IMG/VR virus record: IMGVR_UViG_3300035698_003255
Coordinates: 1 to 33,998 of that record
Direction: 5' to 3' (one strand)
Length of the DNA stretch: 33,998 nucleotides
Source of the DNA: a virus
This document shows positions 283-33,552 of the stretch, piece by piece; the first letter of the stretch is position 1; the number at the start of each line of letters is the position of its first letter. Below the pieces are notes generated by a model that was not told the origin of the DNA, did no database searches, and worked only from the letters and a program-made list of their open reading frames with translations. Made by a program: the position numbers and the translations under genes.

Positions 283-993
283 TTAGTTATTCTCTACCAA
301 GTACTTGAAATCCAGATACTTGATTTTCGTGATGATACGATTTCCACGACGGTCTAGCATCCCGGTCTTCGGCGTTCCAACCAGACCTTCCATTGTCTTG
401 ACCTTGCCGACGCTTGATGCCAACCAAGACACAGGACCGTACTTCACAAAATCAATCGCTTCGGAAACGGTTGCGGTCGCACCGAGTCGGCATCCACCCC
501 AAAGCGGAACCCAAAACAATTCAAGTTTCGCACCAAGATCTTTTACGTTGCTTCGTTCCAACCAGATTCCGTTGATGTTCACATCGAAAAGAATGAAATC
601 CTTGATGTTACTATTTTCAACGTAGTCGCCACCCTTCTGAATCCCGGCTCCGTATCCTTCACCGAAAACCATTGTTTCCTGTGTATCGGTCCCGAAAACT
701 TCTGTCATCTTTTCGACCGTGAACAATTCGTACAATCGCTTCAACAGGTCGGCATGAAGTTGTGCGTTGTCAGTACGCCCACCAATCTTTACGTCTGTCC
801 CGTCCCAACCGACACGGATGTTTGTCCCGTCGATCTTTTCAGTCCAGACCCATTCAGAAAGAAACAATGCTTCAAACTCAGGGGTCGAAAACACACCGGG
901 AATAAAATTTCCGTGTAGGGATTTATCGTCGGTGTTGTCGGGAGTGTACCGCTTGTACAGCCCGTTAATCTTGTGGTATTTATCAAATTTCAT
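283..993 (-). CDS. RNA ligase family protein (Rnl-type nucleotidyltransferase)
   Basis: This is a 236-aa ATP-dependent ligase-type nucleotidyltransferase. Motif I EKIDGTN holds the adenylated lysine (K53). A motif III-like stretch is VFGEGYGAG (residues 109-117), FILFDV follows near 133-138, motif IV EGLVG is at 202-206, and motif V ITKIK is at 221-225. The size fits a bare catalytic core such as the RNA_ligase (Rnl2-like) family, with no obvious C-terminal domain. By homology it seals RNA ends through an enzyme-AMP intermediate. It lies directly downstream of the tRNA cluster in the same direction, which suggests a role in tRNA repair or end-joining (inference). A DNA substrate cannot be ruled out. 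Confidence 0.85.
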   Translation of the reverse strand: MKFDKYHKINGLYKRYTPDNTDDKSLHGNFIPGVFSTPEFEALFLSEWVWTEKIDGTNIRVGWDGTDVKIGGRTDNAQLHADLLKRLYELFTVEKMTEVFGTDTQETMVFGEGYGAGIQKGGDYVENSNIKDFILFDVNINGIWLERSNVKDLGAKLELFWVPLWGGCRLGATATVSEAIDFVKYGPVSWLASSVGKVKTMEGLVGTPKTGMLDRRGNRIITKIKYLDFKYLVENN

Positions 994-5602: not shown

Positions 5603-6950
5603 TATAGTTACTCTGTGAGATGTTTTTCTGTGCCTTCTCTGCTACGTCGTAGAGCCGCATCTTTGTCTTGTCGATCCCCATGATAAATCGTAGGGGCATG
5701 TTTAGGTCGTTGTATCTATTCTTCAGTTGCTTGCCCATGATCTGATTTGACTTGTCCAAATCTTCATTGGTTATTAGGGCAAACATCAGGTCCATCGTAA
5801 ACGGAAGACCCATCGAGTCGGACGTATTGGTAAGATCGACATCGGACGATCCGTACCCGCCCCTGTTCTGTTGTGTCGCCGTGACGATAGGCACATCCCA
5901 AATCACCGCAAGCCCCCGCAATTCTTCGGAGATGGCTTTGATGATTGAGTAGCTATCCATCCCCGATTGTTCCTTGAACCGGGACGATGTACAGAGATTG
6001 ATATAATCAATGTATATAATCTGTGGGACAAACTTCTTTTTTATCCGCAGGTCTTCGATCAATCGGGAGAAGTGGTTCGCCCCGGCTGACGCTGTTGGGT
6101 ACTGTTTGACAATCAGCTTGCCAAGGCTCTTTGTCTTCATCTTGTCGATCTTTTTCTTGAACACATCAAACGGGATGTCTTGGATGGTATTCATAGGAAT
6201 GTCCATCAGGTTCGCATCGATACGTTCGGCAATCTTTTCTTCTGCCATTTCCAGTGTGATGTACAGGACGTTGTATCCTGCCTGAATGTTCGCCGCAGCA
6301 AAATGACACATAGCGAGAGACTTGCCCGCACCTGTTCCAGCCAGAATACAAGATATACTTTTCCGTGGAAGCCCGCCGCCTGTGATCTTGTTCAGGTACT
6401 TCAGGTCAAACGGGATTCGGTTTTCCTTTTCATGGTAAAACTTGAATCGCATATCCGCGTTATCAAGATAGTCGTGCCCGATGTCTTGATTGAACGAAAC
6501 ACCGATTGCGTCTGACAGGATAGAAGGTAGTGCCTCTTTGCCTAACTTCTTTTCCCGCCCGTCGATGATTTCAATACTCTTTGTGATGCCGAGATAGATG
6601 GCTCGCTCTTGACACCATTCTTCGCACTGGTCCGTCAGGAAATCTACATCTTCATGAACCGGATCGGATTCCGCGATGTCTTCCAACGTTGCAACGATGT
6701 TCTTGAATGTATTGTCTTTCAGATTGTTCAGGTCCGACACGATCAACGAAAGAGCATCCACGTTCGGGAGCTTGTTGTACTTGTCAAGGAAACCATCGAA
6801 CAGCTTGAAGATGATACGCGAAAATTCCTCTGTGAAGTATTTCGACTTCAAGAAGGGAGTGACCTTGCGGGCATACTGCTCATTGTGAAACAATGAATAG
6901 AGTACGGTCTGTTCTTTAGGTGGAATATATGGAGTTGTGTTTTCTGTCAT
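5595..6950 (-). CDS. 41: Replicative DNA helicase, T4 gp41/DnaB-like
   Basis: A hexameric 5'-3' helicase of the DnaB family. With the ATG at 6950 the protein is 451 aa: an N-terminal helical domain (residues ~10-150), then the RecA-like motor with Walker A AGTGAGKS (204-211), H1a ITLEMAEEKIAERID and Walker B IIYIDYINL. The C terminus has arginine-rich residues typical of the family. An alternative start at 7031 (behind AGGG) would add a low-complexity extension of 27 residues and overlap the upstream gene by about 115 nt. I prefer 6950 because family homology begins there. It acts with gp59 and the gp61 primase. Confidence 0.93.
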   Translation of the reverse strand: MTENTTPYIPPKEQTVLYSLFHNEQYARKVTPFLKSKYFTEEFSRIIFKLFDGFLDKYNKLPNVDALSLIVSDLNNLKDNTFKNIVATLEDIAESDPVHEDVDFLTDQCEEWCQERAIYLGITKSIEIIDGREKKLGKEALPSILSDAIGVSFNQDIGHDYLDNADMRFKFYHEKENRIPFDLKYLNKITGGGLPRKSISCILAGTGAGKSLAMCHFAAANIQAGYNVLYITLEMAEEKIAERIDANLMDIPMNTIQDIPFDVFKKKIDKMKTKSLGKLIVKQYPTASAGANHFSRLIEDLRIKKKFVPQIIYIDYINLCTSSRFKEQSGMDSYSIIKAISEELRGLAVIWDVPIVTATQQNRGGYGSSDVDLTNTSDSMGLPFTMDLMFALITNEDLDKSNQIMGKQLKNRYNDLNMPLRFIMGIDKTKMRLYDVAEKAQKNISQSNYND

Positions 6951-7161
6951 AGTATCTGTATAGCCCGTTGGGATTTCTGTGTTCTGTTCTGTTCCGTTGA
7001 TTCCGGTCTTGGTATTTGGGCTTGACATCATCAAGACCCTGTTCTAAAATCTCAAGGCATCGTTCAGCCCGGCTCCCCCAATCATACCAGTGGTTCCCGG
7101 CATACTCCATCGAATCTTCGATGGCTTTCTTCAGGGTTTCATATTTTTGTGTATCATTCAT
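6916..7161 (-). CDS. Small hypothetical protein
   Basis: An 81-aa protein, MNDTQKYETLKKAIEDSMEYAGNHWYDWGSRAERCLEIL..., with a charged helical N-terminal half and an Arg/Asn-rich tail that overlaps the helicase start region. Its ATG overlaps the previous stop in the string TGTAAACGATGAATGA, which also occurs at the next junction upstream (7331). Function unknown. Confidence 0.65.
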   Translation of the reverse strand: MNDTQKYETLKKAIEDSMEYAGNHWYDWGSRAERCLEILEQGLDDVKPKYQDRNQRNRTEHRNPNGLYRYYDRKHNSIYST

Positions 7162-7331
7162 CGTTTACACCATGTCCCCCAAACATATTCCCCGCCGATG
7201 ATTCCAACAGTCAATTCCTCATCGTGTACGGCTTTATGTAGTTGGACCCTTGCAAGATTTGGGTTTCCCTTCTCTAAAAACTTCAATGCCATTTCACACG
7301 TTTCTTTATATTTCTTTTTTTCTTCATTCAT
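7158..7331 (-). CDS. Small hypothetical protein
   Basis: A 57-aa protein starting MNEEKKKYKETCEMALKFLE, predicted helical at the N terminus and ending WGTWCKR. The start (7331) and stop (7158) both fit the ATGA overlap chain of this operon. The helix MALKFLEKGNPNLARVQLHKA resembles a TPR-like helical pair, but it is too short to assign. Confidence 0.6.
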   Translation of the reverse strand: MNEEKKKYKETCEMALKFLEKGNPNLARVQLHKAVHDEELTVGIIGGEYVWGTWCKR

Positions 7332-7602: not shown

Positions 7603-7961
7603 TCCACTTCTCCAATCTCTATAATGTCTGTGCTGTCATCTTCCAACTCAGCGAACGGATTGCCGATTGGAATCTTATCAAAGTGGTGTTTGATAAAGTC
7701 ATCAAGGATAATACCGAGCCGTTTTTCGAGTCTCGGAAACTTGATCTTCTCCCACGCATCGTCGTTGGGTACACTCATTATATCATAGTTATAGCGAATG
7801 TCAAGTTTTTCATCATCATCTTTAGTTTCTTCCAGCATGTTCCCAAGCTGAATCTTACCAAAAGCAACGACAAATCCCTTGAAAGGTGAGCGTTTCATAC
7901 GGACAACAAGCCGACCATATTCGTCATCTACGACTTCGTATTCTTTATGTTCTTCAGTCAT
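7599..7961 (-). CDS. Hypothetical acidic protein
   Basis: A 120-aa protein, MTEEHKEYEVVDDEYGRLVVRMK..., with beta-strand-rich pattern and an acidic C terminus (ELEDDSTDIIEIGEVE). The start at 7961 overlaps the upstream stop by 8 nt. A sigma70-type promoter (7777-7804) lies inside the coding sequence and could drive the genes down to the helicase. No family recognised. Confidence 0.68.
   Translation of the reverse strand: MTEEHKEYEVVDDEYGRLVVRMKRSPFKGFVVAFGKIQLGNMLEETKDDDEKLDIRYNYDIMSVPNDDAWEKIKFPRLEKRLGIILDDFIKHHFDKIPIGNPFAELEDDSTDIIEIGEVE
7777..7804 (-). promoter_or_regulatory. Internal sigma70-type promoter
   Basis: TTGACA (7799-7804), 16-nt spacer ending CTATGA, then TATAAT (7777-7782), minus strand, inside the 120-aa gene. 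It would start transcription near 7770 and serve the small membrane, coiled-coil and helicase genes. Confidence 0.55.
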
Positions 7962-8301
7962 CTTCGTGTTTTCCTGTTCCCTTACATGCATAACATACGT
8001 CTTTGCCGCTGTGTGTCTTGCCTGTGCCACCACATGTAATACACATCCCCTGAATCTTGCTCTTGAATTGTTTCTGTTCGGCTACCAACTCATCACGCAA
8101 CTTGCGTATCTTAGGCAACACTTCATTCTGAAACTCATCAAGGTCTTCGGGCAGAAATGAATACACACCCTGTTCGATATTCTCGGTATTGAAACATTTG
8201 CTTGTTCCTATAATCATCCGGATAGCACCGCCGGCTGAAATGAGAAACGTCATTTGATTCCATCTTACTTCGGCTTGTCGTACATAATTATATTCATACA
8301 T
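7954..8301 (-). CDS. Protein with DnaJ-type CxxCxGxG zinc repeats
   Basis: A 115-aa protein. The C terminus carries two CxxCxGxG repeats, CITCGGTG and CYACKGTG (about residues 87-110), as in the cysteine-rich zinc domain of DnaJ. The central part (EVLPKIRKLRDELVAEQKQF) is helical. It lacks a J domain. Known roles of such repeats are zinc binding and protein interaction; the partner here is unknown. Confidence 0.75.
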   Translation of the reverse strand: MYEYNYVRQAEVRWNQMTFLISAGGAIRMIIGTSKCFNTENIEQGVYSFLPEDLDEFQNEVLPKIRKLRDELVAEQKQFKSKIQGMCITCGGTGKTHSGKDVCYACKGTGKHEDD

Positions 8302-8593
8302 TCTGTTTTTCCTTGTGTGCTTTCATTGCTGCTAGTGTCCATTCTTGAACCATATCATTCTGCACAATAGATAATTCATCCAGATTCACAATAGAATCTA
8401 CAATCACATGACCACACCCGATACTATCAGAGATATATTCGTATCCCCCTGTCATCGGATTGAGTCGTTTGTAGATAGTATATCCTAGTGCTGTCTTGCC
8501 GACTTCTATCAGGTCTTCTGGATATTGCTGTGTCGCCGCACGTTGTACCGCGATATCATCAATAGTTTCATTCTGTGTGTTTTCATCGGGCAT
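8294..8593 (-). CDS. Hypothetical protein
   Basis: A 99-aa protein, MPDENTQNETIDDIAVQRAATQQ..., with a polar N terminus and a region TALGYTIYKRLNPMTGGYEYISD (residues 34-56) that looks like a beta hairpin. It overlaps uvsX by 11 nt and the zinc-repeat gene by 8 nt. Unknown function. Confidence 0.68.
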   Translation of the reverse strand: MPDENTQNETIDDIAVQRAATQQYPEDLIEVGKTALGYTIYKRLNPMTGGYEYISDSIGCGHVIVDSIVNLDELSIVQNDMVQEWTLAAMKAHKEKQNV

Positions 8594-9671
8594 CTTTTTC
8601 TGGCTCCAAATCTAAAATCTCTCCGTCGTTGTCGCTGCCGTAACAATACACATCACTTGCCTTGGCTTCGATTTGATTTAGCACATCTTCTGTGAACCAC
8701 GCTTCGGGGTCTTCGTAAATATTCGTTTCGGTTTCTGATTCTCCGTTGGGAAACTCGTACTTGGTAGAAATCTTACTGACCACATCCGCAGCCACAGCAA
8801 TATCCAGAAGACCGCGATGGGTCTGAAGACCATCGATAAAGTCAACGCCGATACGGCATGTAGAGTTTTCCTTGGTGAACCGGGATTTGTACATACGACA
8901 TAGGATAGAGATGCCTACCTGTTTCTTCGCCTGTTTTGCTCCCTTTGTTTCTTTGCTCTTGGACAGCATGACGATAGATGATCCGAGATATTGAAGACCG
9001 GACCCGCCCGATGGCATTTTCTTTCCGAATGGTTTCATCTCTGTATATGTATGGTTTGTGATGATGAACGGAACATTCGCCCGAGCCACACGCAGAGCAA
9101 TAACACGGCAGAACCCTTTTACCAGTTGTGCCCTTGTCATATCCTTTGTCTCTGCACCTTTTTCGGTGTCTTCGATTTCCTTGCTGGTGGACAGATTGCC
9201 GAGCGAGTCAAGCACCATCATAATAGGCACGGGGCATCCAGCCTCAATGTGACCGTCGAGAATCTTGATCGCCTGATACCGTACTTCTTCTACAGTAACC
9301 ACAGGGAAAACAGCAACCCGTTTCGGATCAATACCACGTTCCTTGAACATGGCTGATGTAACCGCCGATTCAGAATCGTAATAACAAACAAGACCATCGG
9401 GGTTAGCATCCAAGAATTCCTTTACGGCAGAAAGAGCTAGATAGGTTTTACCTGTCGCAAACTCTCCCGCGAAACATGTGATTTTATTTGATGGGATTCC
9501 ACCATAGATAGAACCGGACAGCAACGCATTCAACGCATACGATCCAGTGTCGCACCAATCCGCTACGTCTGCCCCTTCCAATCCGTCTTCTACAATAGAG
9601 GCATATTCGTTTCCGGTCGCCGCAATCATGTCTTCTAATAGGTTTGTCTTTTTCTTTTGTCTTTTAGCCAT
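8583..9671 (-). CDS. uvsX: UvsX RecA-like recombinase
   Basis: A 362-aa strand-exchange ATPase. Walker A GEFATGKT (residues 69-76), then ALSAVKEF, LVCYYDSESAV, Walker B IMMVLDSLGNL (150-160) and the DNA-binding loop region PSGGSGLQYLGSSIVML. Size and motif order match T4 UvsX. It coats ssDNA and pairs homologous strands in recombination-dependent replication. It overlaps the MazG-like gene (8 nt) and the 99-aa gene. Confidence 0.94.
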   Translation of the reverse strand: MAKRQKKKTNLLEDMIAATGNEYASIVEDGLEGADVADWCDTGSYALNALLSGSIYGGIPSNKITCFAGEFATGKTYLALSAVKEFLDANPDGLVCYYDSESAVTSAMFKERGIDPKRVAVFPVVTVEEVRYQAIKILDGHIEAGCPVPIMMVLDSLGNLSTSKEIEDTEKGAETKDMTRAQLVKGFCRVIALRVARANVPFIITNHTYTEMKPFGKKMPSGGSGLQYLGSSIVMLSKSKETKGAKQAKKQVGISILCRMYKSRFTKENSTCRIGVDFIDGLQTHRGLLDIAVAADVVSKISTKYEFPNGESETETNIYEDPEAWFTEDVLNQIEAKASDVYCYGSDNDGEILDLEPEKDAR

Positions 9672-9990: not shown

Positions 9991-10262
9991 TTCGGTGGTT
10001 CCTCTCTTTCAGGGATGTTGCTGCCCATCCCATACTTCGTAATCATTTCTTTGTGTAGTCTGAAGTATTCACTTTCCCAATACTTCGCTTGGGCTTCCCA
10101 CCAAACTCTGTATAGTTTATATTGACAACAAGCGGATGATGTATTCTCCCACTTCTTGTACCAATAGTTTCTGAGGTTGCTCACAAATATAATAGCGAGC
10201 AACAATATCAAGATCGCAACACCACACCCCACGATTGCCATTGTAGGTACTTCTATCATCAT
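9987..10262 (-). CDS. Single-TM membrane protein
   Basis: A 91-aa protein beginning MMIEVPTMAIVG. A membrane segment spans about residues 8-27 (AIVGCGVAILILLLAIIFVS), followed by an aromatic, charged cytoplasmic or periplasmic tail with WYKKW and WWEAQAKYWESEY. The start at 10262 overlaps the polymerase stop (GCATGATG). Function unknown. Confidence 0.68.
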   Translation of the reverse strand: MMIEVPTMAIVGCGVAILILLLAIIFVSNLRNYWYKKWENTSSACCQYKLYRVWWEAQAKYWESEYFRLHKEMITKYGMGSNIPEREEPPK

Positions 10263-11776
10263 GCGAAAAATCCTTCTATTGTGTTTACCTTTTTGTGTGT
10301 CCATCCAATATGGTCCGTGATGTTCTTCAACGGTTGGAGGAACGCCTTGTCAAACATAAGATCGTAGTTGACCGCCGGGTGGAGCCCAAATTCCTTGGGG
10401 AGCCGGTTCGGGAACGCGATTACCTTATCTTTTAGTACATTTGGTTCCTTCAAGTATACATACTTCAGTTTTTCACCTGAAGCGATAGGCTGTACGGTTC
10501 CGTGTAGCTCGGGATGCTGGTCTAGCATATGGTTCCAGAGCAACGCACCCTTGACCTGAATCGGTGTACCCTTTGTATAGATACTATTCGGGTCTGCCCA
10601 CTTCTCAAGGTTGTTACACCCTCTAGGAAACGCGATGTCTTCAACATCTTTCTTTCTAAACTTGTTTTCTATCTTCCCGACAAAGGTAATCATCTTCTCA
10701 TTGTCTTTGTTTAGGATGATCCTGATACATCGTTCCAGTGCCTTACGGAAAAACTCCGGTGTAGAGGATCGTGTAGTTTCGATGCCCATGATTTTCACCT
10801 TGGGATTCTTGTACCGGACCCCCTCAGAATCCCATACGTTCATGGCGTATCGTTTTTTCGCTGTCCAGAAAGCCCGGTCGGCAATACATTCACGCGACAT
10901 CTTCAGGGCATCGGGCTCGGTCGCATTGAGATAATACGCTACATCCCTGAATGACTTGTCGATGATCGGCTGAATCTTTTCGTCACACGCCTTGTCGAGA
11001 ATGTCAACGATTTCGGCTTTGCTCTTGTGTGCCCAAAACTTCTGCACCAACGGATCGAGTTTCAGATAGTTAGAGTCCGTATCGATTGCGATTACAAAAT
11101 CTTCATCCTTTGTTTCAAGCACCCGGTTCAGATACGCATACAGGTCATTCGCTACCCAACGGATAGCAAGCTGACCGGTGAGCGTGATCGCTTCGGCTAA
11201 TCGGATGTCGTAGTACCGCCCGTACTGGTTCCCTAGAGAACCGTAGCATGAGTTTAGGGCAATCTTCTTTGCCTTTTGTATAGAATCGTATTGTTTCTTT
11301 TTTGTAGAAAGTGCTTCGATGGCTTTCTTGTTTTTCCTTGGTTGTTTCTTTAGCCGTTCAAGCTCAATCGATGCATCGATCATCAACTTCTTGTACTTCT
11401 TACGCTCGGCGTACATCTTCAGAATGATCTTGGGAAGGAATCCCATCCCGTCGCGCTTGAATACAACACCGTTCGCACCCAACGAATAGTCATCATCGAC
11501 CAATGTATCTATCCTGTTGCTGGACGGGTCCAACATAGATTCGATATCACTGCCATAGTGTTCACCATTCACGATCTTTTCCGGAGAGATGTTCAGGAAA
11601 ATCATCAGGTTCGGATACAGAGAGTTTACGTCGTAGGAAACAACCCAATCGTGTAGACCGGTGATCGGTTCCTTGACATACGCGCCCTCATACTTGCCCG
11701 ACTTGTCAGACCGAGACAGGATCGGGATGACCGTATCTGTCTTCTTGAGATGGTTGTAAATGATAGCGTCCAACAC
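10259..11776 (-). CDS. 43: DNA polymerase family B, palm/thumb part (gp43 C-terminal)
   Basis: C-terminal half of a T4 gp43-type polymerase. From a GTG at 11776 the protein is 505 aa with motif A YDVNSLYPNL, motif B KIALNSCYGSLGN and motif C IAIDTDSNYL, the catalytic palm aspartates. Reading on upstream in this frame gives FSTAVLDAIIYNHL, which continues the exonuclease half that lies in another frame. There is no intervening sequence. A GTG-started independent subunit is possible, but a frameshift within one gene is more natural. Confidence 0.9.
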   Translation of the reverse strand: MLDAIIYNHLKKTDTVIPILSRSDKSGKYEGAYVKEPITGLHDWVVSYDVNSLYPNLMIFLNISPEKIVNGEHYGSDIESMLDPSSNRIDTLVDDDYSLGANGVVFKRDGMGFLPKIILKMYAERKKYKKLMIDASIELERLKKQPRKNKKAIEALSTKKKQYDSIQKAKKIALNSCYGSLGNQYGRYYDIRLAEAITLTGQLAIRWVANDLYAYLNRVLETKDEDFVIAIDTDSNYLKLDPLVQKFWAHKSKAEIVDILDKACDEKIQPIIDKSFRDVAYYLNATEPDALKMSRECIADRAFWTAKKRYAMNVWDSEGVRYKNPKVKIMGIETTRSSTPEFFRKALERCIRIILNKDNEKMITFVGKIENKFRKKDVEDIAFPRGCNNLEKWADPNSIYTKGTPIQVKGALLWNHMLDQHPELHGTVQPIASGEKLKYVYLKEPNVLKDKVIAFPNRLPKEFGLHPAVNYDLMFDKAFLQPLKNITDHIGWTHKKVNTIEGFFA

Positions 11777-12825
11777 CGCAGTTGAGAAAATACATCTTCG
11801 AAGTTTATCAGTGCATCATACGCTACCGTGTAACACAGAGACAGGAACGCGAGTTTTTCATCCAGAGCTACAATAAGCTCTACGTCGCCCATGTTGTATC
11901 CGACAAACTTGTTCCAGTCGTTTTTGTAGAACGTGTGGATGTTGTCGAATTCTTCGTAGCCCAACTTCTTCCGACCCAATTCGATGTACGCGATATAGTC
12001 AAGACGATACGATTCACGCTTGTTGTATGTAAACTTCTGGTACAACTCCATGTAATCCAGAGTCGAGATGCCAGCGATTGTATAGCTGGATCGGTCCTGA
12101 CCCATATAGTTGTTAGACTTCTTCTGTAGATACTTGTACGGGGAAAGACCCTTTGCGGCTTTCTCGCCTAACACCTTACACATACGGTTGTACAGATAAG
12201 GGATGTCGAAAAACTTGATGTTCCATCCAGACACAACATCCATGTCACAGGAAACCCAAAACTTCAGGATTCCCCACAACAGGGCTGTTTCATCTTCGCA
12301 GTGTACATACTTCGCATTCAGGTTCCGCAGCAACTCATTTTCAAGCAACGCCTGATCAAACGGCTTTGTCCCGAAGACATAATAGACGCCGTTGATATAG
12401 AACGTCCCGCACAGGATAGCTTCCGCAGCTTCGTCCGGTTCGGGGAATCCGTTTTCACATTCTGTTTCAAGGTCGAAGATCATCGATGTGATATGATCGT
12501 GGTTCCAATCAAAGTCTACACCTTCATAGTAGTCTGAAAGATATGCGTATTCATACCGTTCCATCCCGTAGATTGCCAAGTTGTCAAGACCCTTGTACTG
12601 GTCAAGAAACTCTTTGGCTTTCTTCATGTTGTCAAACTTCTTTTCCCGCACCGGTTCGCCATGCATGTTCTTGTATGGCGTATCTTCTCCGTCCCTTGCA
12701 GACAGATACAAGGATGGGGAATACGTTTCCTTGAGTTTGACAGGTTGACCATGCAAATCCTTTGCTCGGACCCGTATGGTATTGCCGTATCTTGAGATGT
12801 TTGTGTATTGGTGTAGGCTGTTCAT
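11626..12825 (-). CDS. 43: DNA polymerase family B, exonuclease part (gp43 N-terminal)
   Basis: N-terminal half of gp43: Exo I MIFDLETEC, Exo II SGWNIKFFDIPYLYNRM and Exo III YNMGDVEL, so the 3'-5' proofreading site is intact. Homology stops near 11787 (about residue 346). The next 50 or so codons (LRCWTLSF...) are out of frame with the palm domain. A single missing T in the run TTTT at 11787-11790 would join the halves as VFFSTAVLDAI, giving about 855 aa, close to T4 gp43 (898). Confidence 0.88.
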   Translation of the reverse strand: MNSLHQYTNISRYGNTIRVRAKDLHGQPVKLKETYSPSLYLSARDGEDTPYKNMHGEPVREKKFDNMKKAKEFLDQYKGLDNLAIYGMERYEYAYLSDYYEGVDFDWNHDHITSMIFDLETECENGFPEPDEAAEAILCGTFYINGVYYVFGTKPFDQALLENELLRNLNAKYVHCEDETALLWGILKFWVSCDMDVVSGWNIKFFDIPYLYNRMCKVLGEKAAKGLSPYKYLQKKSNNYMGQDRSSYTIAGISTLDYMELYQKFTYNKRESYRLDYIAYIELGRKKLGYEEFDNIHTFYKNDWNKFVGYNMGDVELIVALDEKLAFLSLCYTVAYDALINFEDVFSQLRCWTLSFTTISRRQIRSSRSCLGLTSRASMRARMSRNRSPVYTIGLFPTT

Positions 12826-24580: not shown

Positions 24581-25549
24581 TTACGGCATATGATACTTGA
24601 TGCCCATTTTCAGGGCTTTATAGATATCATCTTCGATTTTCTTGAAGGATTTTTCAGCAGACTTCGCCAAGGATTCCGGTTCAAGGAATTTAATTTCTCG
24701 CTTCACCTTACCGATTAGATCGTGCATTGTTCGGGCTAGTGACGAAAATTCACTTCGGGCTGGTTTCTTAGAAAAGAATCCAGCCTTCGATGCTTTCTTG
24801 ATCAACTCTTTGTATTGAATGAACGCACCTTCCAGAGCATCAAGGTTTGCGGTGCTTCCCTTTACGGCTTCGCGAAGTGATGTGGTTTCATTCATGGCAA
24901 TCTTTTCTGCTTCTTTGATAGTTTCTTCTGGCATCTGGTTCGGTGAGGCATACGGAACCTTGAGATAGGTCATCGCTCCGGTAGACTGGTCACGCACAAT
25001 CACATGACGGTTCTTCAGAGCAAACTGTTTGATGATATTGTGTTCGGGGTTTTCGGGGTCGAGATACTTTTTGTATCGGTCGTAGCGACCTTTACAGTCT
25101 TTACACCCGGCAAAGGTTTCGGACGATACATCGAAGACTCGGTTGCCCGCGAATGTTCCGTCTGTGTCTACTGCGGATTCACGGATTGCCACTTGATATA
25201 CCTTTTGCATGACTTCACGCTGTTTGTTGTCGTTCTTGTCTGGACGGGTGAGCATCAACATTGATACATCCTTCCGCATCTTCTTCAGCCGGTCTACAGA
25301 ATATGTCTTCCGTAGCTGTTGAGCATATTTTTCAATCTGTTCAGGGGTCGCCTTGGTCATGTCGCCGGGAAGATCGATCTTCAGTGCTTCGTCCGTTCGT
25401 TTCAATACAGACGTAGAATCCTTCTGCTTCTTTTGGACTTTCTTGGGAACACCGGGATCGGGATTACCGTCCGTGTCTTTATCGCCAAGCGGTGTATTGC
25501 CTACAGCGTTGGTAGGGATTTCTTCAAGCAGGTCTTTGAAAGTCTTCAT
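24581..25549 (-). CDS. Conserved T4-like protein, possible virion/assembly role
   Basis: A 322-aa protein, MKTFKDLLEEIPTN..., followed by a proline/lysine-rich zone. It has a CKDCKGRYDRYKKYLDP segment (C-x2-C) and a helical C-terminal third. The MKTFKxLL opening is common among structural-region proteins of marine T4-like phages. Start at 25549 because the upstream gene occupies the extension. Function unknown. Confidence 0.7.
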   Translation of the reverse strand: MKTFKDLLEEIPTNAVGNTPLGDKDTDGNPDPGVPKKVQKKQKDSTSVLKRTDEALKIDLPGDMTKATPEQIEKYAQQLRKTYSVDRLKKMRKDVSMLMLTRPDKNDNKQREVMQKVYQVAIRESAVDTDGTFAGNRVFDVSSETFAGCKDCKGRYDRYKKYLDPENPEHNIIKQFALKNRHVIVRDQSTGAMTYLKVPYASPNQMPEETIKEAEKIAMNETTSLREAVKGSTANLDALEGAFIQYKELIKKASKAGFFSKKPARSEFSSLARTMHDLIGKVKREIKFLEPESLAKSAEKSFKKIEDDIYKALKMGIKYHMP

Positions 25550-26084: not shown

Positions 26085-26477
26085 TTATAGGTTTCCCAAT
26101 GTCGCTACTACCTTGTGATCTAAATCTACCGGTCCCAACTCATCCCAAAACTTTTGCCCATTATAGAAACTCAAGTAAATCAAAAACGTCTTCAGCGTCG
26201 AATAGTGTTTCGTATCAATCTTGTACAACAAGATTCGTGTAGCAGCTTCGATTCCAAAGACGTTGAAGAATATTATAATGTGGTTCAATATCAACTGATG
26301 ATTGATTGTACTCTTTGTTGTTGAATGTCTACTCAGCCATCGTTTTATATACTTGACTCTGTTCAGGTCTTCGTAAAACTCATCGAGCCCTGTGCATGTC
26401 GGGTTATCGTAATGTTGTCCTGCGTACAGGGGAAGGGATTCTTCCGTCAACGGTAAAAATTCATTGTGTAATGTCAT
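26085..26477 (-). CDS. Conserved T4-like phage protein
   Basis: A 130-aa protein: LPLTEESLPLYAGQHYDNP..., then RVKYIKRWLSRH and LILNHIIIFFNVFGIEAATRIL. I recall a similar protein (HYDNP, NVFGVEAATRML) in marine T4-like phages. Predicted helical. Position beside the 183-aa gene is consistent with a shared packaging or head role. Confidence 0.7.
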   Translation of the reverse strand: MTLHNEFLPLTEESLPLYAGQHYDNPTCTGLDEFYEDLNRVKYIKRWLSRHSTTKSTINHQLILNHIIIFFNVFGIEAATRILLYKIDTKHYSTLKTFLIYLSFYNGQKFWDELGPVDLDHKVVATLGNL

Positions 26478-26501: not shown

Positions 26502-27281
26502 TTAGTCTTTGTCAGCAGGAGCGATAGCAAGCAAGCCTTGTTTGCTCTTAGGCACTTTCAGTTGTTTGATTGCTTCCGTTTTAGCCGCAAGTAAAGAAGC
26601 CGCATATATTTCTATACGGTTTTTGTTGTAAATCGCCACAAAACCGCGTTGACCTTTATCATTATATGCTTTTTCTTCACCGAGCCCTACTTCAGAATCC
26701 ATCATTTCTTCCCGGTCATCACGTTTCAGACAGGCATTGACGGTCCAGCGTTGACGCGAACCGAGATACTTTCTAAACTTGAATTCGATGACAAGGTTGT
26801 GCCCGTCCGAAAGGTTTTTGCCTACATACGGATCGAACGTCCCACCGTGTTGTTCTACCCGCACATGCGTAACATATTCGGGCTGTGGTTCTGGTTCACC
26901 GACCTGCATGGGCTGTGTCGGATTAGCCTGTGATGAAGCAATCCGTTCAGCCTGATCTTCTGCCCGTCTTTCTTCGGCTGCGAGCGACGGAATTGACAAT
27001 GAGAAAACATCCTTGGGAATTTTCACATTGGGGAAGTAGATGCCGACAGTGATCAACTTATTTCTAAGATGATTTACGGCTGTGTGAGGATTGACGTAAT
27101 CTCGTTCGTTGATCGTAGAGATGTAGCTACTCAACAGGTCCAATGCTTCAGGATCACTTAGATCGTGAATCTGTACGGCATCAAGTGATCCCGCATCCAG
27201 CCCCGTATCCGGAGCCAGAGGCGAAATACCTGCGGTGTCTTCTGTCAATATATCCATGCAAAGGTCTTTTGCAGTTTTCAT
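26502..27281 (-). CDS. Hypothetical protein, probable structural region
   Basis: A 259-aa protein, MKTAKDLCMDILTE..., then a Pro/Gln-rich linker (PTQPMQVGEPEPQPEYV) and a beta-rich second half (NLVIEFKFRKYLGSRQRWTV, RIEIYAASLLAAKTEAI). No known domain. Confidence 0.68.
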   Translation of the reverse strand: MKTAKDLCMDILTEDTAGISPLAPDTGLDAGSLDAVQIHDLSDPEALDLLSSYISTINERDYVNPHTAVNHLRNKLITVGIYFPNVKIPKDVFSLSIPSLAAEERRAEDQAERIASSQANPTQPMQVGEPEPQPEYVTHVRVEQHGGTFDPYVGKNLSDGHNLVIEFKFRKYLGSRQRWTVNACLKRDDREEMMDSEVGLGEEKAYNDKGQRGFVAIYNKNRIEIYAASLLAAKTEAIKQLKVPKSKQGLLAIAPADKD

Positions 27282-27672: not shown

Positions 27673-28248
27673 TTAGTCTTCGTCTTTTTTGACGGGCTTT
27701 TCATCATCGTCTTCATCATCGTCATCTTCTTTCTTGTCGCCCTTTTTCTTTAGGAAGTCAGGCTTCTTATCATCGTCACCCTCATCAGAGGATTCCTTGA
27801 TGTCATCGTCTTTTTCTTTCTTCTTATCATCGTCTTCATCATCGTCAGAATCATCAGAATCTTTCTTCTTCAAGAAGTCAGGCTTCTTATCTTCTTTGTC
27901 ATCTTCTTCGGCTTCGCCCATCATCACACGCGAACACGCTGCCATCAACTGTGCTGTGATTTCAGCTTCGTCTACCGGCTCTTTCTTGGTGTCATCGTCA
28001 GAGTCTTTCTTGACAGGTTCTTTCTTGTCATCTTTCTTTTCATCTTTTTCTTTATCATCCTTTTCAGAAACTTTATCATCGGTAGAAGTATCCTTCTTAT
28101 CCATGGAATCGTCAGCGTCATCATCCTTCTTTTTCAAGAAATCTGGCTTCTCACCTTCGTTCATTACAGACGAACATGCGTCAAGTAATTCTTGGGAGAT
28201 GCCTGCTTCGGTGGCGAATTGATTTGTTTCGGCGTTTTGGTGTGTCAT
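27673..28248 (-). CDS. Acidic repeat protein (KPDFLKKK repeats)
   Basis: A 191-aa low-complexity protein dominated by Asp, Lys and Glu. KPDFLKKK occurs at residues 34-41, 122-129 and 162-169; a helical unit ISQELLDACSSVM (17-29) recurs as ITAQLMAACSRVM (97-109). The layout (helix, acidic linker, KPDFLKKK) looks like an internal duplication. An acidic prohead-core role, as for T4 gp67, is a guess. Confidence 0.75.
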   Translation of the reverse strand: MTHQNAETNQFATEAGISQELLDACSSVMNEGEKPDFLKKKDDDADDSMDKKDTSTDDKVSEKDDKEKDEKKDDKKEPVKKDSDDDTKKEPVDEAEITAQLMAACSRVMMGEAEEDDKEDKKPDFLKKKDSDDSDDDEDDDKKKEKDDDIKESSDEGDDDKKPDFLKKKGDKKEDDDDEDDDEKPVKKDED

Positions 28249-28283: not shown

Positions 28284-29363
28284 TTATATTTTATTCAGGT
28301 TTTCGGACGATCCGACAAGAACCCTTCCATCGAACAGCTTGATTTCAGGGGAAACGGTCCCCGCGAGCCTGTGTACAAACTTATTTTTTGCCAATGTCTC
28401 TGCTTTTTCTACAATATGCTCCCGTGTGATGTCGCTTTTGAAGATGTCCAGATAGGAATCTGAGATGACAACCTTCTTTTCGTAGGGGAAGTATACTATT
28501 GGAACAGCAGAAGTTAGCTTCATTTTTTCCAGAAGCTCTCGGTGAGTAATACCATCGAAATTTTCCAGCATCCAGACAGAACCGGTCCCTTCATATGACA
28601 CATATCCTCTGATGCCATACAGCGTAGGATCGTGCCATCTACAGTTTTCGTTGATCATCGTCATACATTCTTTACGGGAGAAGTTTTCGTGAAGCACAGG
28701 AACATCGTTACACATATCTTCGTCTACCTTCCAAGTTTCATTAGGAATGTCGAGCGTTTCGGTCACAAATCTCTTGAATGTCAGGGATTCTTCTTTGATC
28801 CCCAATCCCTTCCGTACAGCATTATATATCTGTTTCTTTATCGGGGTAGATTTGCCCGCGATTCCCTTGGCAAATGCTTCGAAGTCACCCGCCACAGCCG
28901 CTTTTCGGATATTTGTTCCCGACACAGACGCTACATTAGCAGGGTCAAATGTCGTGGCGTCCATCCGTGGCTTGCCGACAGACACTACTTCGAACGAATC
29001 AAATGTATAGTTTCCCTTGTCGATCTGCTTTTGTACATTTGTTTTGAATTCTTCTGCCCTGTCAGAGCCTACAAGCATGACGACATTTTTGTATCCCTTG
29101 TCCATGATCTTCTCAATCGCGACAAACGGATTCTTTATGGAAGCGTCATCAGAGATGTTCAGCTTGGGGAACAGCTTCTTGAGAAAGCGAACCTTGTCTT
29201 TGAATGCGATAGGATTCTTTTTTCTGTCGTGAGATGAGAACGTAAACAACCAAGGATCGAATCCTTTTTTGGATGCGACCCAAGCTACTTCATCAGCCAA
29301 CATCGCGTGACCTATCGTGGGTGGTTGAAACCGACCGACCGTGATTACTGCTCCGTTCTTCAT
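28284..29363 (-). CDS. Nucleotidyltransferase (NMNAT-like) with C-terminal extension
   Basis: A 359-aa protein. The N-terminal ~160 residues form a HIGH-type nucleotidyltransferase: GRFQPPTIGH (10-19), VVMLVGSDR (94-102) and SGTNIRK (148-154), as in NMN adenylyl- or cytidylyltransferases. The last 200 residues have no known motif. The substrate cannot be read from sequence. It overlaps the kinase gene by ATGA. Confidence 0.84.
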   Translation of the reverse strand: MKNGAVITVGRFQPPTIGHAMLADEVAWVASKKGFDPWLFTFSSHDRKKNPIAFKDKVRFLKKLFPKLNISDDASIKNPFVAIEKIMDKGYKNVVMLVGSDRAEEFKTNVQKQIDKGNYTFDSFEVVSVGKPRMDATTFDPANVASVSGTNIRKAAVAGDFEAFAKGIAGKSTPIKKQIYNAVRKGLGIKEESLTFKRFVTETLDIPNETWKVDEDMCNDVPVLHENFSRKECMTMINENCRWHDPTLYGIRGYVSYEGTGSVWMLENFDGITHRELLEKMKLTSAVPIVYFPYEKKVVISDSYLDIFKSDITREHIVEKAETLAKNKFVHRLAGTVSPEIKLFDGRVLVGSSENLNKI

Positions 29364-30226
29364 TCGTCTTCTTTTTGTTTGAGTGTGGGCACTGCATTAC
29401 CGATCCGTCGCGACGGTGGGGCAAACTTTTCAATCCAACGATATACTTTCGTGAGCATAGCCGACCGAGAATCTACTTTCTTTCCCGGTTCCTTGACCGT
29501 CACATACTTGAAGTCTTTCACGACAATCTGATCTTTGTTTTTGCCTGTCTTGATAGGCTTGCCGTTCTTGTCTGTATAGAGTACGGTGTTCTTTGCACCG
29601 CCTAGAACAACGTGTACGGAGCCGTTGAGCCCGGCTGGTATGCCGCCGCTGATGATGTGGTGCATCGTGTCTACAGCCCCTTCATGTGTCTTGGTGAGGA
29701 TGTCAGCGGGCACTATCCTATCTCGCTCTTGGTTCTGCTTGATCGCCACAAAGTAATCCGTGAGTACCCATACGAGATGGATATTTTTTGAATCGTATCC
29801 ACTCTTTTCAAGTATGGGGAGAGTCTTTGTCAAATCCCGCATCTCTTTTAGTGTGATGTCGAACATCATGTTTGGAAGCTCGTACCGGGACGGTGCAGCC
29901 TTGGTGAATAGGGCGTCCATGATCTTGTCTTGGATGCCGATCCCTTTGATGAACATGTGGAGCTTGAATACGTCGGAAGGGTTCTTCAGGTCCAAAGAGG
30001 CAAGCTCTTTGTATTGGTCTTTGACCTTTGCCATCTTCAGGAAAGAGGCTTTCCATGCATCGACATCGATGACCTTGAATTTGTTGCCTTCCATGAAGTT
30101 GTTGATGACAAACCCTTTACCGGAGCCCGTCCCACCAGCCACGAACACAACCTGCCCCGACCGCTTCCCCTTGTTGATGATGAGAAGACGTTCGTTGATT
30201 AGGAATTTGTTGAATGTGTCGATCAT
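29360..30226 (-). CDS. P-loop kinase-like (zeta-toxin type) protein
   Basis: A 288-aa protein. VVFVAGGTGSGKGF has a Walker A motif GGTGSGKG (31-38), then VIDVDAWKASFL, and HLVWVLTDYFVAIKQNQER. This fits the zeta-toxin/polynucleotide-kinase-like P-loop group. It phosphorylates a small molecule or nucleic-acid end; target unknown. It overlaps both neighbours by ATGA. Confidence 0.78.
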   Translation of the reverse strand: MIDTFNKFLINERLLIINKGKRSGQVVFVAGGTGSGKGFVINNFMEGNKFKVIDVDAWKASFLKMAKVKDQYKELASLDLKNPSDVFKLHMFIKGIGIQDKIMDALFTKAAPSRYELPNMMFDITLKEMRDLTKTLPILEKSGYDSKNIHLVWVLTDYFVAIKQNQERDRIVPADILTKTHEGAVDTMHHIISGGIPAGLNGSVHVVLGGAKNTVLYTDKNGKPIKTGKNKDQIVVKDFKYVTVKEPGKKVDSRSAMLTKVYRWIEKFAPPSRRIGNAVPTLKQKEDE

Positions 30227-31461
30227 TTATATGTCCGTTTCGGTACGCTAAAGTTATTTCGCGAAAACGTTAGGCGGTCTATCAGCTTTACGGCGTTGTC
30301 GTTGATGTCTATCGCCACGAATCCTTCGGGTCCGACCACTTCATATCCGTCAGGTTTCTTGATGAATGACTTGATCGCATCGAGCCGTTCCAGCTTGCGA
30401 AGAATGAGAATCTTTAGCTCATTCGTTGTCGCTGTATACTTCATTACCGTGTTGAGCCCGGTACTGTTGTCTCTCATGTACTGAAGCGTGTCTGTTCGCT
30501 TTGTTTCCTGTGTGTTCTTCCCCTTGTCGGACTTCCGCTTGTCCCGTTCTTTACTGATCCTGTCGGATATGAACGTGAAGAATCCTGCTGTGTAACTACC
30601 TATATTTATACCACCTTTTATGAAGTCGCCAGCCTTGACTTTGCTGTTGTGGTATATCTGCATGAACGAAGATATTTTGTTTTTGTCGGCTGCGATGTCT
30701 TTCAGCAACGAGCCGGGGATGCTGTTCTTCTGTTTCTCCATCGCCCCGAGCAACCCGTATGCGGTCTTCTGTTCAGCCTTGGAAAGCATGATGCTGTTCG
30801 TCTTCTTCACATATGCGTCGGTAAACCAAACGGATTTAGTGTCTTTGAGTCCGGAGATGTTGATCCGGAAAGAGGCTTTGGAGGATTGAATGGTTTTTCC
30901 GGAATAGCCGGTGTGGAAGACGATCCCAATCTTTGCTTTCGAAATCTTTCTTCCCAATCCTGAAGACGTTGGGACAGCGTATGTAATTGTGTTTGGGGCA
31001 AAAGCATAGTATTCTTCTCCGTTGATAGTCTTTTTTACTATCGTTTCTGGAATGAACATGACATCGCCTTGTAGAATCCCTTTGATCCCTAGCTTTGGGA
31101 ATTCCGATAGTGCGATATGTAATACATCTCCGAGCGTGTTGGGGTGGTTGCGGTTGATATCATCGTGAGTGTAGTTGACTATTGGAGTTACTTTGTTGAA
31201 CACACTCTTTGATCCAACAAAAAACTTTCCGCTTTCGGGGTCCGTCCCGGCAAAGATGGACACCCGCCCATCGTACTTCATTGTAACGTCCGTATTGGAT
31301 GAAGATTCTGTAGACGAAAGTGTGTCTACCAGACCCTTCATAAATCGGAACGTATCATCCACACCCTTTTTTCCATGGGCGAGTACCAGTTCTTCCACAT
31401 GATCCATGTGGGTATTCTTTGATGCCTCATTCAATTGTACATAATGTTTGAAACTATACAT
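30223..31461 (-). CDS. Ligase-like nucleotidyltransferase (DUF6267 type)
   Basis: A 412-aa protein. VTMKYDGRVSIF has the K-x-D-G motif (Lys62) of nucleic-acid ligases and capping enzymes; FFVGSKS, ILQGDVMF, GIVFHTGYS and EGFVAIDI...VKLIDR fall in the places of motifs III to V. The family appears in marine T4-like phages as DUF6267. It is larger than the small ligase at 283-993. Possible end-joining partner of the kinase. Confidence 0.76.
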   Translation of the reverse strand: MYSFKHYVQLNEASKNTHMDHVEELVLAHGKKGVDDTFRFMKGLVDTLSSTESSSNTDVTMKYDGRVSIFAGTDPESGKFFVGSKSVFNKVTPIVNYTHDDINRNHPNTLGDVLHIALSEFPKLGIKGILQGDVMFIPETIVKKTINGEEYYAFAPNTITYAVPTSSGLGRKISKAKIGIVFHTGYSGKTIQSSKASFRINISGLKDTKSVWFTDAYVKKTNSIMLSKAEQKTAYGLLGAMEKQKNSIPGSLLKDIAADKNKISSFMQIYHNSKVKAGDFIKGGINIGSYTAGFFTFISDRISKERDKRKSDKGKNTQETKRTDTLQYMRDNSTGLNTVMKYTATTNELKILILRKLERLDAIKSFIKKPDGYEVVGPEGFVAIDINDNAVKLIDRLTFSRNNFSVPKRTYK

Positions 31462-33552
31462 TTATTTTGTTCCAACGACAATCGTGGTTTTTCCGGACGA
31501 TGCGGTTTCTTTCTTCAGATTTACTCTTACCTTACATGCAGGCAGAACATATTGGCGGTTTTTGTTTGTTGCTGTTGTGATATTCTCAAGTGTTGACCAG
31601 TTACGACCATCGTTCAACGAATATTGAATCCGTAGATTGTTGATGTCAATTTCATGTTGGGTCTGGACATTCAGTGTCCTGCCCTTGAAGTTGAATGTCT
31701 GACCACCACCCGTAGAGATAGAGTCAAAGGAAATTGTATTGTTTCTGACTTGAGTTTCACCAGAATCATCAATCCGTGGGTCTACATAACTTCGATTTAT
31801 CCATGAACCGTGACGTAGAACAGATGTCCCGGCTTGGTTTACTCCAACCGCTTGCTGAACAGAGTCCCATGTCTTCCCATCATCAAGAGTTTCCATATAG
31901 TTTCCACGACCGCGAGCCGAGTTGATGCAATCAAAGTAGAACCGCCACGCCCCCGGTTTTCCGAGAGACATACGATACGGACCTTCGCAGTTTGCGGAGT
32001 CAGCCGCATTGGTTGTTGGATGTGCCCCGACATTCCCGGCAGAGTCTTCCCATCCGTGATGATACCCGGCGACAGAATCCCACGGACCTATAGCAGAATC
32101 CGCAATAAGTTTTCTGCTGCTCCATGAAATTCTTGATCCTGCCGGGGCTCCAGACCTTGCGGTATATATCATGTGATACTTACCACTTTCTTTCCACACC
32201 ATAGCGTCTACATGGTCGCTCGGAACAGCACCCGCCGAAAACAATACAGAATCCGGTGTTGTCCATTCAGACAAATCAGCATTCGTAGGTTGTGTATGAT
32301 AAAGAAAGAAATCTGCTTGGTTGTCGAATGATAATCCTACGAACACATGAATAGAATCATTGTCATCTATAAACATTTCAGGGGCAAATGCTCTTTCTAA
32401 TCCAGTGCCGTATCCCGCTTTCGGTGTAGCACCGCCGCACTCAACATTGACATGGTGATCCCAATGGTATGCATCTTTGGAGCGTAAAAGACCAAAAGAT
32501 TCTAAGCCATTGATAGACCAGTGTTGTTGTGTGTATGCGAGATACCATATCGAATCGGCGGGATTGAAGATTGGTGACGGGTCACGGACAACGGTTTCGT
32601 GTTGTGCCCGGCACGATGAAAGATATGAATCCCATATCCGACCATCGTTTGATCGACCCTGATACATAGACTGGTCTGTACTAAGTGGGTCTGACGGTCC
32701 ACCCGCATCACCTTCCCATGTAAAGTTGATACACGGAGAGTCAAGGAAACCAGCCCCGCCGAACCATCGTTGTAGATAGGTGTTTGTTGCCTGTAACTCC
32801 GCGTCGGATAGTCTTCGATTGTATGTAATGACTTCATAGACATAGATGTGCTGTGCCCGATCTACAAGACCTCCATTATAAAACCCCGCACCAATAGCAA
32901 TACCCTTTGCAGGAATCATTGTGCTACCGGCAGTATCAGTATCGGACCATTTACAAAATCCTTGGAATCCCCAATCCAAAATAGAATCATCGTGCCGAGC
33001 CTGAACAATAAACGGACGTTCCCTTGCCGGTATATCGGCGTGTGGAATATCGGCAATAAGTCGCCGGGTCGCTGCCGAGCCTGCTCTGTTGTCAAGTTTT
33101 ACAACGAAGTACGATGGTGGATTTCCACCGGAAAAACGTCTGCTGTGTAGATACCAAACGTCGTTTCCGCCACCGGGAGCATCAGCCGCACGACCGCCCG
33201 CCCAAGTTTCAATTTTGCTGGTGTCTACACTATCCTGACGCATCAACATGATAATAGTTTTTACAGAATCAGTAAACCCTATAGGGATAGTTAGGTTATC
33301 GTTTTCGAAAAGGATGCCCGGCATTCCATTCAGATTGGCGGTTTCGAATACAGGACGCTGACCTTCGGCGGCGGCATCGACAGCAGAGGACATAGCGACG
33401 TTCCATGCCTGAGCAACATGCCCGTTGCCTGATTGGTCGATCCATTTAGCCACATTCGTTCCGTTGGTACATGAGTCATCCGAAGCATCGAGTGTGCCTG
33501 CGTCTGCTCGTAACCAAAGTGTCGCTCCCGCAACTGGTAATTCTAATGCCAT
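31462..33552 (-). CDS. Large adhesin/tail protein with LamG-like and beta-propeller domains
   Basis: A 696-aa protein. Residues ~1-265 (GATLWLRADAGTLDASDDS..., ending YNRRLSDAELQATNTYLQRW) form a concanavalin A/LamG-like domain. Residues ~300-590 with WYLAYTQQHW, MFIDDNDSIHVFVG, KYHMIYTARSG, AWRFYFDCIN resemble a five-bladed beta propeller of GH43/GH32 type. The end (LRIQYSLNDGRNWSTLENI) resembles the small 103-aa protein upstream. Probably a host-glycan binding or cleaving virion protein. Confidence 0.78.
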   Translation of the reverse strand: MALELPVAGATLWLRADAGTLDASDDSCTNGTNVAKWIDQSGNGHVAQAWNVAMSSAVDAAAEGQRPVFETANLNGMPGILFENDNLTIPIGFTDSVKTIIMLMRQDSVDTSKIETWAGGRAADAPGGGNDVWYLHSRRFSGGNPPSYFVVKLDNRAGSAATRRLIADIPHADIPARERPFIVQARHDDSILDWGFQGFCKWSDTDTAGSTMIPAKGIAIGAGFYNGGLVDRAQHIYVYEVITYNRRLSDAELQATNTYLQRWFGGAGFLDSPCINFTWEGDAGGPSDPLSTDQSMYQGRSNDGRIWDSYLSSCRAQHETVVRDPSPIFNPADSIWYLAYTQQHWSINGLESFGLLRSKDAYHWDHHVNVECGGATPKAGYGTGLERAFAPEMFIDDNDSIHVFVGLSFDNQADFFLYHTQPTNADLSEWTTPDSVLFSAGAVPSDHVDAMVWKESGKYHMIYTARSGAPAGSRISWSSRKLIADSAIGPWDSVAGYHHGWEDSAGNVGAHPTTNAADSANCEGPYRMSLGKPGAWRFYFDCINSARGRGNYMETLDDGKTWDSVQQAVGVNQAGTSVLRHGSWINRSYVDPRIDDSGETQVRNNTISFDSISTGGGQTFNFKGRTLNVQTQHEIDINNLRIQYSLNDGRNWSTLENITTATNKNRQYVLPACKVRVNLKKETASSGKTTIVVGTK

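Follow-up and report, generated by a model that had tools for sequence, protein, structure and literature searches.

The viral DNA fragment IMGVR_UViG_3300035698_003255 (positions 1 to 33,998; this whole 34 kb stretch is referred to as the window) carries T4-type replication genes and, on its minus strand, three adjacent genes for a DUF6267 protein, a P-loop kinase and a nucleotidyltransferase. The open reading frames (ORFs) were found as the preliminary description had reported them, with DUF6267 (412 residues) at 30223..31461, the kinase (288 residues) at 29360..30226 and the nucleotidyltransferase (359 residues) at 28284..29363, and both junctions are 4-base ATGA overlaps (30223-30226 and 29360-29363, respectively). 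Our analysis indicates that these are probably enzymes that are loaded into the phage's own head and ejected into the host with the DNA. An action in or on the virion had already been suggested, and it now receives strong support from the T4-type leaders and from nucleotidyltransferase homologues detected by mass spectrometry in published work.

In the capsid-targeting sequence (CTS) of T4, MKTYQEFIAE/A (the slash marks the cut), mutational data assigned residues 4 and 7 to targeting and residues 8 and 10 to processing (PMC9026906). A strict pattern, P1, was defined as an aromatic residue or Leu, two residues, a hydrophobic residue, one of ILVM, any residue and Glu; a relaxed pattern, P2, allowed up to two extra residues. 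DUF6267 starts with the leader MYSFKHYVQLNE (31426..31461, minus strand), with a predicted cut after E12 in front of Ala (homologues MYSFKQYLNE/AKNTHLEH), and the kinase starts with MIDTFNKFLINE (30191..30226, minus strand), followed by Arg; both match P2. P1 or P2 was matched by 3 of the 53 non-overlapping ORFs of the window, these two and a neighbour at 24581..25549 (minus strand) that starts with the strict leader MKTFKDLLEE. The T4 controls were IPII and IPIII (MKTYQEFIAE/A), Alt (MELITELFDE/D) and gp24 (MAKINELLRE/S). P1 was present in 4 of 252 T4 ORFs, IPII and IPIII among them, and in 4 of 211 annotated S-SZBM1 proteins, one of which is a nucleotidyltransferase detected in the virion. 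By family, it was found in 58/77 DUF6267 proteins (75%), 19/79 kinases and 10/29 nucleotidyltransferases, compared to 48/557 among the remaining genes of DUF6267 loci and 1/671 among those of kinase loci (0.1-9%). Among cultured phages, the nearest isolate found with a leader-bearing DUF6267 was Melnitz-3. When DUF6267 was clustered at 50% identity, P1 was kept in 10 of 14 clusters. Counted back from the Glu, 45 distinct DUF6267 leaders had F at -6 in 39, F or Y at -3 in 41 and L or I at -2 in 44, positions that agree with the T4 mutational data. RecA-like proteins starting MSDFLKDIIKE also match P1 in DUF6267 loci; these are taken as chance matches that indicate the false-positive level there.

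Published mass spectrometry of purified cyanophage virions had detected the nucleotidyltransferases of S-SM1 (T4-GC190), S-SCSM1 (ORF91), S-SZBM1 (S-SZBM1_140) and S-CREM2 (ORF154). All four match P1 (MKKFSAFLNE/A, MKSFLQFLKE/A, MRFRQFIIE/A and MKNFSSFLTE/A, respectively), giving a descriptive Fisher p of ~4e-7 against the S-SZBM1 background. Predicted local distance difference test (pLDDT) values fell below 50 for DUF6267 residues 1-15 and kinase residues 1-12 in models that were folded elsewhere. In addition, S-SZBM1 has a leaderless DUF6267 protein whose start, MAKNTHLEHLED, corresponds to the remainder after cutting MYSFKQYLNE/AKNTHLEHLED of relative L057. Because the leaders are disordered in the models, the leaderless DUF6267 starts at the predicted cut and the virion nucleotidyltransferases are tagged in every case, a cleaved leader is favoured over a structural start. 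A gp21-type protease (PF03420) was present in 7 of 8 relatives' contigs of at least 50 kb, and an LAE/A or LTE/A site was found within the first 60 residues of the major capsid proteins of S-SCSM1, S-CREM2 and S-SZBM1. By analogy with T4, the leaders of DUF6267 and the kinase would bind the prohead core during assembly, the gp21-type protease would cut after the glutamate of LxE or IxE and free each enzyme beside the DNA, and the mature enzymes would remain with the DNA and be ejected into the host.

This arrangement resembles that of the T4 internal proteins IPI, IPII, IPIII and Alt, which carry a CTS and are processed by gp21. Shared features are a short leader, rare in the genome, with aromatics three apart and then L/I-x-E, diverse mature parts behind a common leader, and a gp21-type protease (here in the relatives). 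In contrast to T4, the cargo is ligase-, kinase- and nucleotidyltransferase-like, targeting and cleavage are predicted, and the window leaders have 12 residues compared to 10 in IPIII. The cyanophage virion proteins described as cytidylyltransferase- or NMNAT-like belong by profile to the same nucleotidyltransferase family as the window protein, and those of S-SM1, S-SZBM1 and S-SCSM1 lie in the same syntenic helicase-to-primase island; the cyanophage virion papers examined gave no targeting mechanism for them. Whereas these proteins have N-terminal leaders, the window member has only the internal leader-like motif LTFKRFVTE (residues 194-202; 28758..28784, minus strand) just past its nucleotidyltransferase domain. 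The background of such internal motifs is 0.1-0.3 per 1000 residues, so that the chance of finding this one is roughly 0.1, and it is a possible internal cleavage site. Since an N-terminal leader is lacking, packaging of the window's own nucleotidyltransferase could go either way. A leader-like start together with an internal leader-like motif was also seen in syn9 gp186 (L012 9644-10372) and S-SM1 192 (L187 8343-8831), whose internal motifs (LLTFKQFNE and LLTFGQFTKE, respectively) resemble that of the window nucleotidyltransferase.

The DUF6267 protein (PF19782, E=1e-94) contains motif I KxDG, motif IV EGxV and the motif V Lys in order. K62 (codon 31276-31278), D64 and G65 (KYDG here), E379, G380, V382 and K392 were invariant across 56 aligned DUF6267 proteins. 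Its AlphaFold (AF2) model had a mean pLDDT of 89.5, and all 50 listed VIA matches to this model were polynucleotide ligases, with Naegleria RNA ligase (Z 9.1) at the top, then TbREL1 (8.4), T4 Rnl2 (7.9) and T4 Rnl1 (7.7); the best match had a root-mean-square deviation of 3.6 over 183 aligned residues. Foldseek with the same model found nothing significant (E >= 0.2), and searching PDB by sequence with each of the three proteins, or with profiles built from them, produced no convincing match. The invariant KxDG, EGxV and later Lys together with the VIA matches support the reading of DUF6267 as a putative adenylating enzyme with an RNA-ligase-like nucleotidyltransferase fold, in line with the K-x-D-G ligase-like enzyme proposed earlier. 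It differs from these RNA ligases in a helical insert before motif IV, and it has no detectable sequence similarity to Rnl2. A second KxDG protein in the window (283-993, minus strand) is a separate, leaderless Rnl2-like RNA ligase (PF09414, E=1.9e-12).

The zeta toxin/polynucleotide kinase-like assignment of the second gene also stood: it scored 24.9 bits with Zeta_toxin PF06414 (cut-off 22.3) and matched phrog_5268, and its model (mean pLDDT 74.7) gave VIA matches to AvrRxo1 (Z 12.0), zeta toxin (11.8), C. thermocellum Pnk (11.1) and T4 Pnk (10.1). The window kinase shares the fold, Walker A, DxD and RxR residues of zeta toxins, AvrRxo1 and bacterial polynucleotide kinases (invariant G31, G32, S35, G36, K37, D54, D56, R168 and R170), and differs from them in its capsid-type leader and its place in a phage operon with DUF6267. 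The fold matches these three groups approximately equally and does not separate their substrates, UDP-N-acetylglucosamine (UNAG), NAD and 5'-OH polynucleotide; fold and conserved residues point to a polynucleotide or nucleotide kinase. No close relatives of it were found in bacterial genomes with peptide seeds. For the third gene, the preliminary description had proposed an NMNAT-like enzyme, of which the HIGH-superfamily nucleotidyltransferase part held (GRFQPPTIGH and VSGTNIR; CTP_transf_like PF01467, 25.7 bits, cut-off 21; phrog_3041, phrog_395 and phrog_455) and NMNAT as such was not supported, the curated model TIGR00482 giving 15.6 bits against a cut-off of 112.45. By the curated models it is thus predicted to be a HIGH-family, CTP_transf_like enzyme that is not NMN-specific, with a further C-terminal part beyond the domain. 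Canonical NMNAT and NadR, a single-chain kinase plus NMNAT, were rejected for lack of model support. Peptide seeds found no close relatives of this protein in IMG/VR.

A joint pathway of the three enzymes had also been proposed. Of 50,697 phage records, 467 contained DUF6267 and 518 contained the nucleotidyltransferase. Sorted by organism name, the two sets were nearly alike (Synechococcus 368 and 374, Cyanophage 61 and 61, Prochlorococcus 24 and 24, Methylophilales 4 and 4, and Pelagibacter 2 and 2, respectively), and 42 of 80 DUF6267 loci from IMG/VR had a nucleotidyltransferase on the same strand, many contigs ending soon after DUF6267. The window's kinase family occurred in 206 phage records, chiefly of enterobacterial phages; DUF6267 was present in 0/80 kinase loci and a kinase of this profile in 4/80 DUF6267 loci. 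These counts indicate that DUF6267 and the nucleotidyltransferase form a pair in marine T4-like phages and that the kinase, mostly found without them, is an optional partner, which weakens the proposed three-enzyme pathway. The phrog_455 profile matches both DUF6267 (profile positions 17-338) and the nucleotidyltransferase (422-694), and therefore some phages appear to carry the two fused.

Judging from fold and conserved residues, the packaged set would consist of a ligase-like adenylating enzyme, a kinase acting on polynucleotides or nucleotides, and a nucleotidyltransferase. Tentatively, the set may heal and seal RNA ends that host defences break during the first minutes of infection, a role that would fit the relatives' combination of ligase, kinase, phosphatase-like and nucleotidyltransferase proteins and the phage responses to tRNA cleavage that are known (PMC7824862). 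T4 Pnkp and Rnl1, which repair RNA, are alike in the PNK/zeta-fold kinase and, with Rnl2, TbREL1 and the Naegleria ligase, in the ligase-like fold with KxDG, EGxV and K; Pnkp and Rnl1 differ in having no such leader at the start. A role in NAD or nucleotide metabolism is almost equally probable. In that case the nucleotidyltransferase would make an NAD-like dinucleotide, the kinase would supply or modify it and DUF6267 would use the product, so that NAD or ATP pools are restored or rerouted at entry. This possible role is in keeping with the GRFQP and SGTxIR signatures, with the naming of the nucleotidyltransferase as NMNAT in a cyanophage paper, and with a tagged adenylate kinase in the operons of two relatives. 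AvrRxo1, the best fold match of the kinase, is an NAD kinase. NAD salvage by a HIGH nucleotidyltransferase and a kinase occurs in jumbo phages (PMC7824862). In contrast, the NMNAT models scored far below their cut-offs, DUF6267 resembles polynucleotide ligases and the kinase is mostly found without the nucleotidyltransferase.

Several observations weigh against this interpretation of packaged enzymes. The leaders of the window DUF6267 and kinase exceed the strict T4 register by 2 residues and fit P2 but not P1, and the nucleotidyltransferase has none at its N-terminus. The pattern was tuned after the sequences had been seen, and the homologues share ancestry; the p-values for the leaders are therefore descriptive only. 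An hhalign comparison of DUF6267 with an Rnl2 alignment of only 3 Rnl2-type sequences detected no similarity, which leaves the ligase assignment without sequence-profile support. The window ends short of the head genes, including the protease gene, no proteomics was found for its phage, and the virion tables of S-SZBM1 and S-CREM2 do not list DUF6267, though both versions are leaderless. Finally, the S-CREM2 authors noted that caesium chloride (CsCl) preparations can contain contaminants. Alternatively, these would be ordinary cytoplasmic genes if the motif at the N-terminus were due to chance or to a structural amphipathic start and contamination explained the virion detections in the relatives, and the location of the trio among replication genes would agree with this. 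We consider this unlikely, given the enrichment of the motif in DUF6267 over the background, the tag on each of the detected nucleotidyltransferases, and the presence of the motif on unrelated families, where it ends at the point at which leaderless homologues begin. DUF6267 is leaderless in S-SM1, S-SZBM1 and S-CREM2 (those phages with a virion-detected nucleotidyltransferase in which its start was readable), and its absence from the S-SZBM1 and S-CREM2 tables is what packaging by leader predicts. A recruitment of these folds as head-core or DNA-packing components in which catalysis is irrelevant, as might be suggested by several S-SCSM1 island virion proteins without known activity, is very unlikely since the catalytic residues K62, D64, G65, E379 and K392 of DUF6267 and the nine listed for the kinase are invariant.

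The trio had been placed in a structural region, which is only partly right; it lies among polymerase, RecA-like, DnaB-like and primase genes, and a T4 structural-gene cluster was rejected as its setting, while the equivalent island of S-SCSM1 does encode mostly virion proteins (genes 89, 90, 91, which is NMNAT-like, 92, 93, 95 and 97 are so annotated). S-SCSM1_90, beside the NMNAT-like gene, was checked and is not DUF6267. Between 33552 and 24581 the window shows synteny with the corresponding island of Kyanoviridae, where the genes of S-SZBM1 run in the order gp41 helicase, MazG, two hypotheticals, DUF6267, nucleotidyltransferase, several hypotheticals and a virion protein, a phrog_407 homologue, two genes and primase. 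Upstream of the trio, a virion-structural-like gene (31462..33552, minus strand; phrog_10356, E=1.3e-8) has its stop codon abutting the DUF6267 start codon. Downstream, the phrog_407 protein (26085..26477, minus strand), a homologue of S-SZBM1_135, serves as synteny marker, and a neighbour at 26502..27281 (minus strand) with weak homologues in the relatives' islands starts with an imperfect leader, MKTAKDLCMDILTED. A highly acidic, Asp/Lys-rich protein (27673-28248, minus strand) in which PDFLKKK and an element 'ATEAGISQELLDACSSVM' / 'DEAEITAQLMAACSRVM' are repeated may belong to the core or scaffold. PADLOC found no defence match. Elsewhere in the window, DNA polymerase B is present as two overlapping ORFs of 399 and 505 residues in different frames (10259-12825, minus strand), through a frameshift, a sequencing error or a genuine split.

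Leaders were also found on other enzymes of relatives. The L057 and L031 operons comprise DUF6267, adenylate kinase, a zeta/PNK kinase and a long gene with a nucleotidyltransferase domain, with strict leaders on DUF6267 and adenylate kinase and recognisable leaders on the kinase or the last gene; in L031 the adenylate kinase matched PF00406 (E 1.9e-37) and the last gene has a weak pol-beta-like domain. In L030, DUF6267, the kinase and a 5'-nucleotidase-like protein are all tagged. The virion-detected S-CREM2 gp156 contains SDIDLHLV, read as pol-beta-like. The kinase homologue of coliphage RB43 (RB43ORF241, L009 5995-6828) starts with the leader MKSFKDFVSLDE/A, and the tagged kinase therefore reaches well-studied enterobacterial phages. 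Beside DUF6267 in L084, two similar proteins in near-tandem (6439-7323 and 7908-8810; Pfam match unconvincing) bear the leaders MKTFKHYLTE and MKTFKGYLTE. Next to a virion protein, the adjacent small proteins S-SZBM1 191 and 192 (L177 22311-22628 and 22628-23125) have the strict leaders MKSFKSFLSE and MKTFKQYITE; they are predicted internal proteins and were not in the S-SZBM1 mass spectrometry table. A broader and rather doubtful proposal is that T4-like phages, marine ones and others, rely on the T4 tag to package interchangeable nucleic-acid repair enzymes (DUF6267 as the ligase-like member, polynucleotide kinases, nucleotidase, pol-beta and HIGH nucleotidyltransferases and adenylate kinase), which would enter with the genome and undo host RNA-cleaving defences before the expression of any phage gene.

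NMNAT-like proteins in virions and the targeting sequences of T4 were both known before. In a literature search covering few subscription papers, no description was found of one tag linking virion NMNAT-like proteins, DUF6267 and kinases, and no mention of DUF6267. The cyanophage virion papers leave the NMNAT/cytidylyltransferase-like proteins undecided between cargo and contamination, and a shared T4-type address tag, if true, would answer this question. It would also yield a rule by which injected proteins of the abundant marine T4-like phages could be predicted from sequence, and DUF6267 would become a testable injected enzyme.

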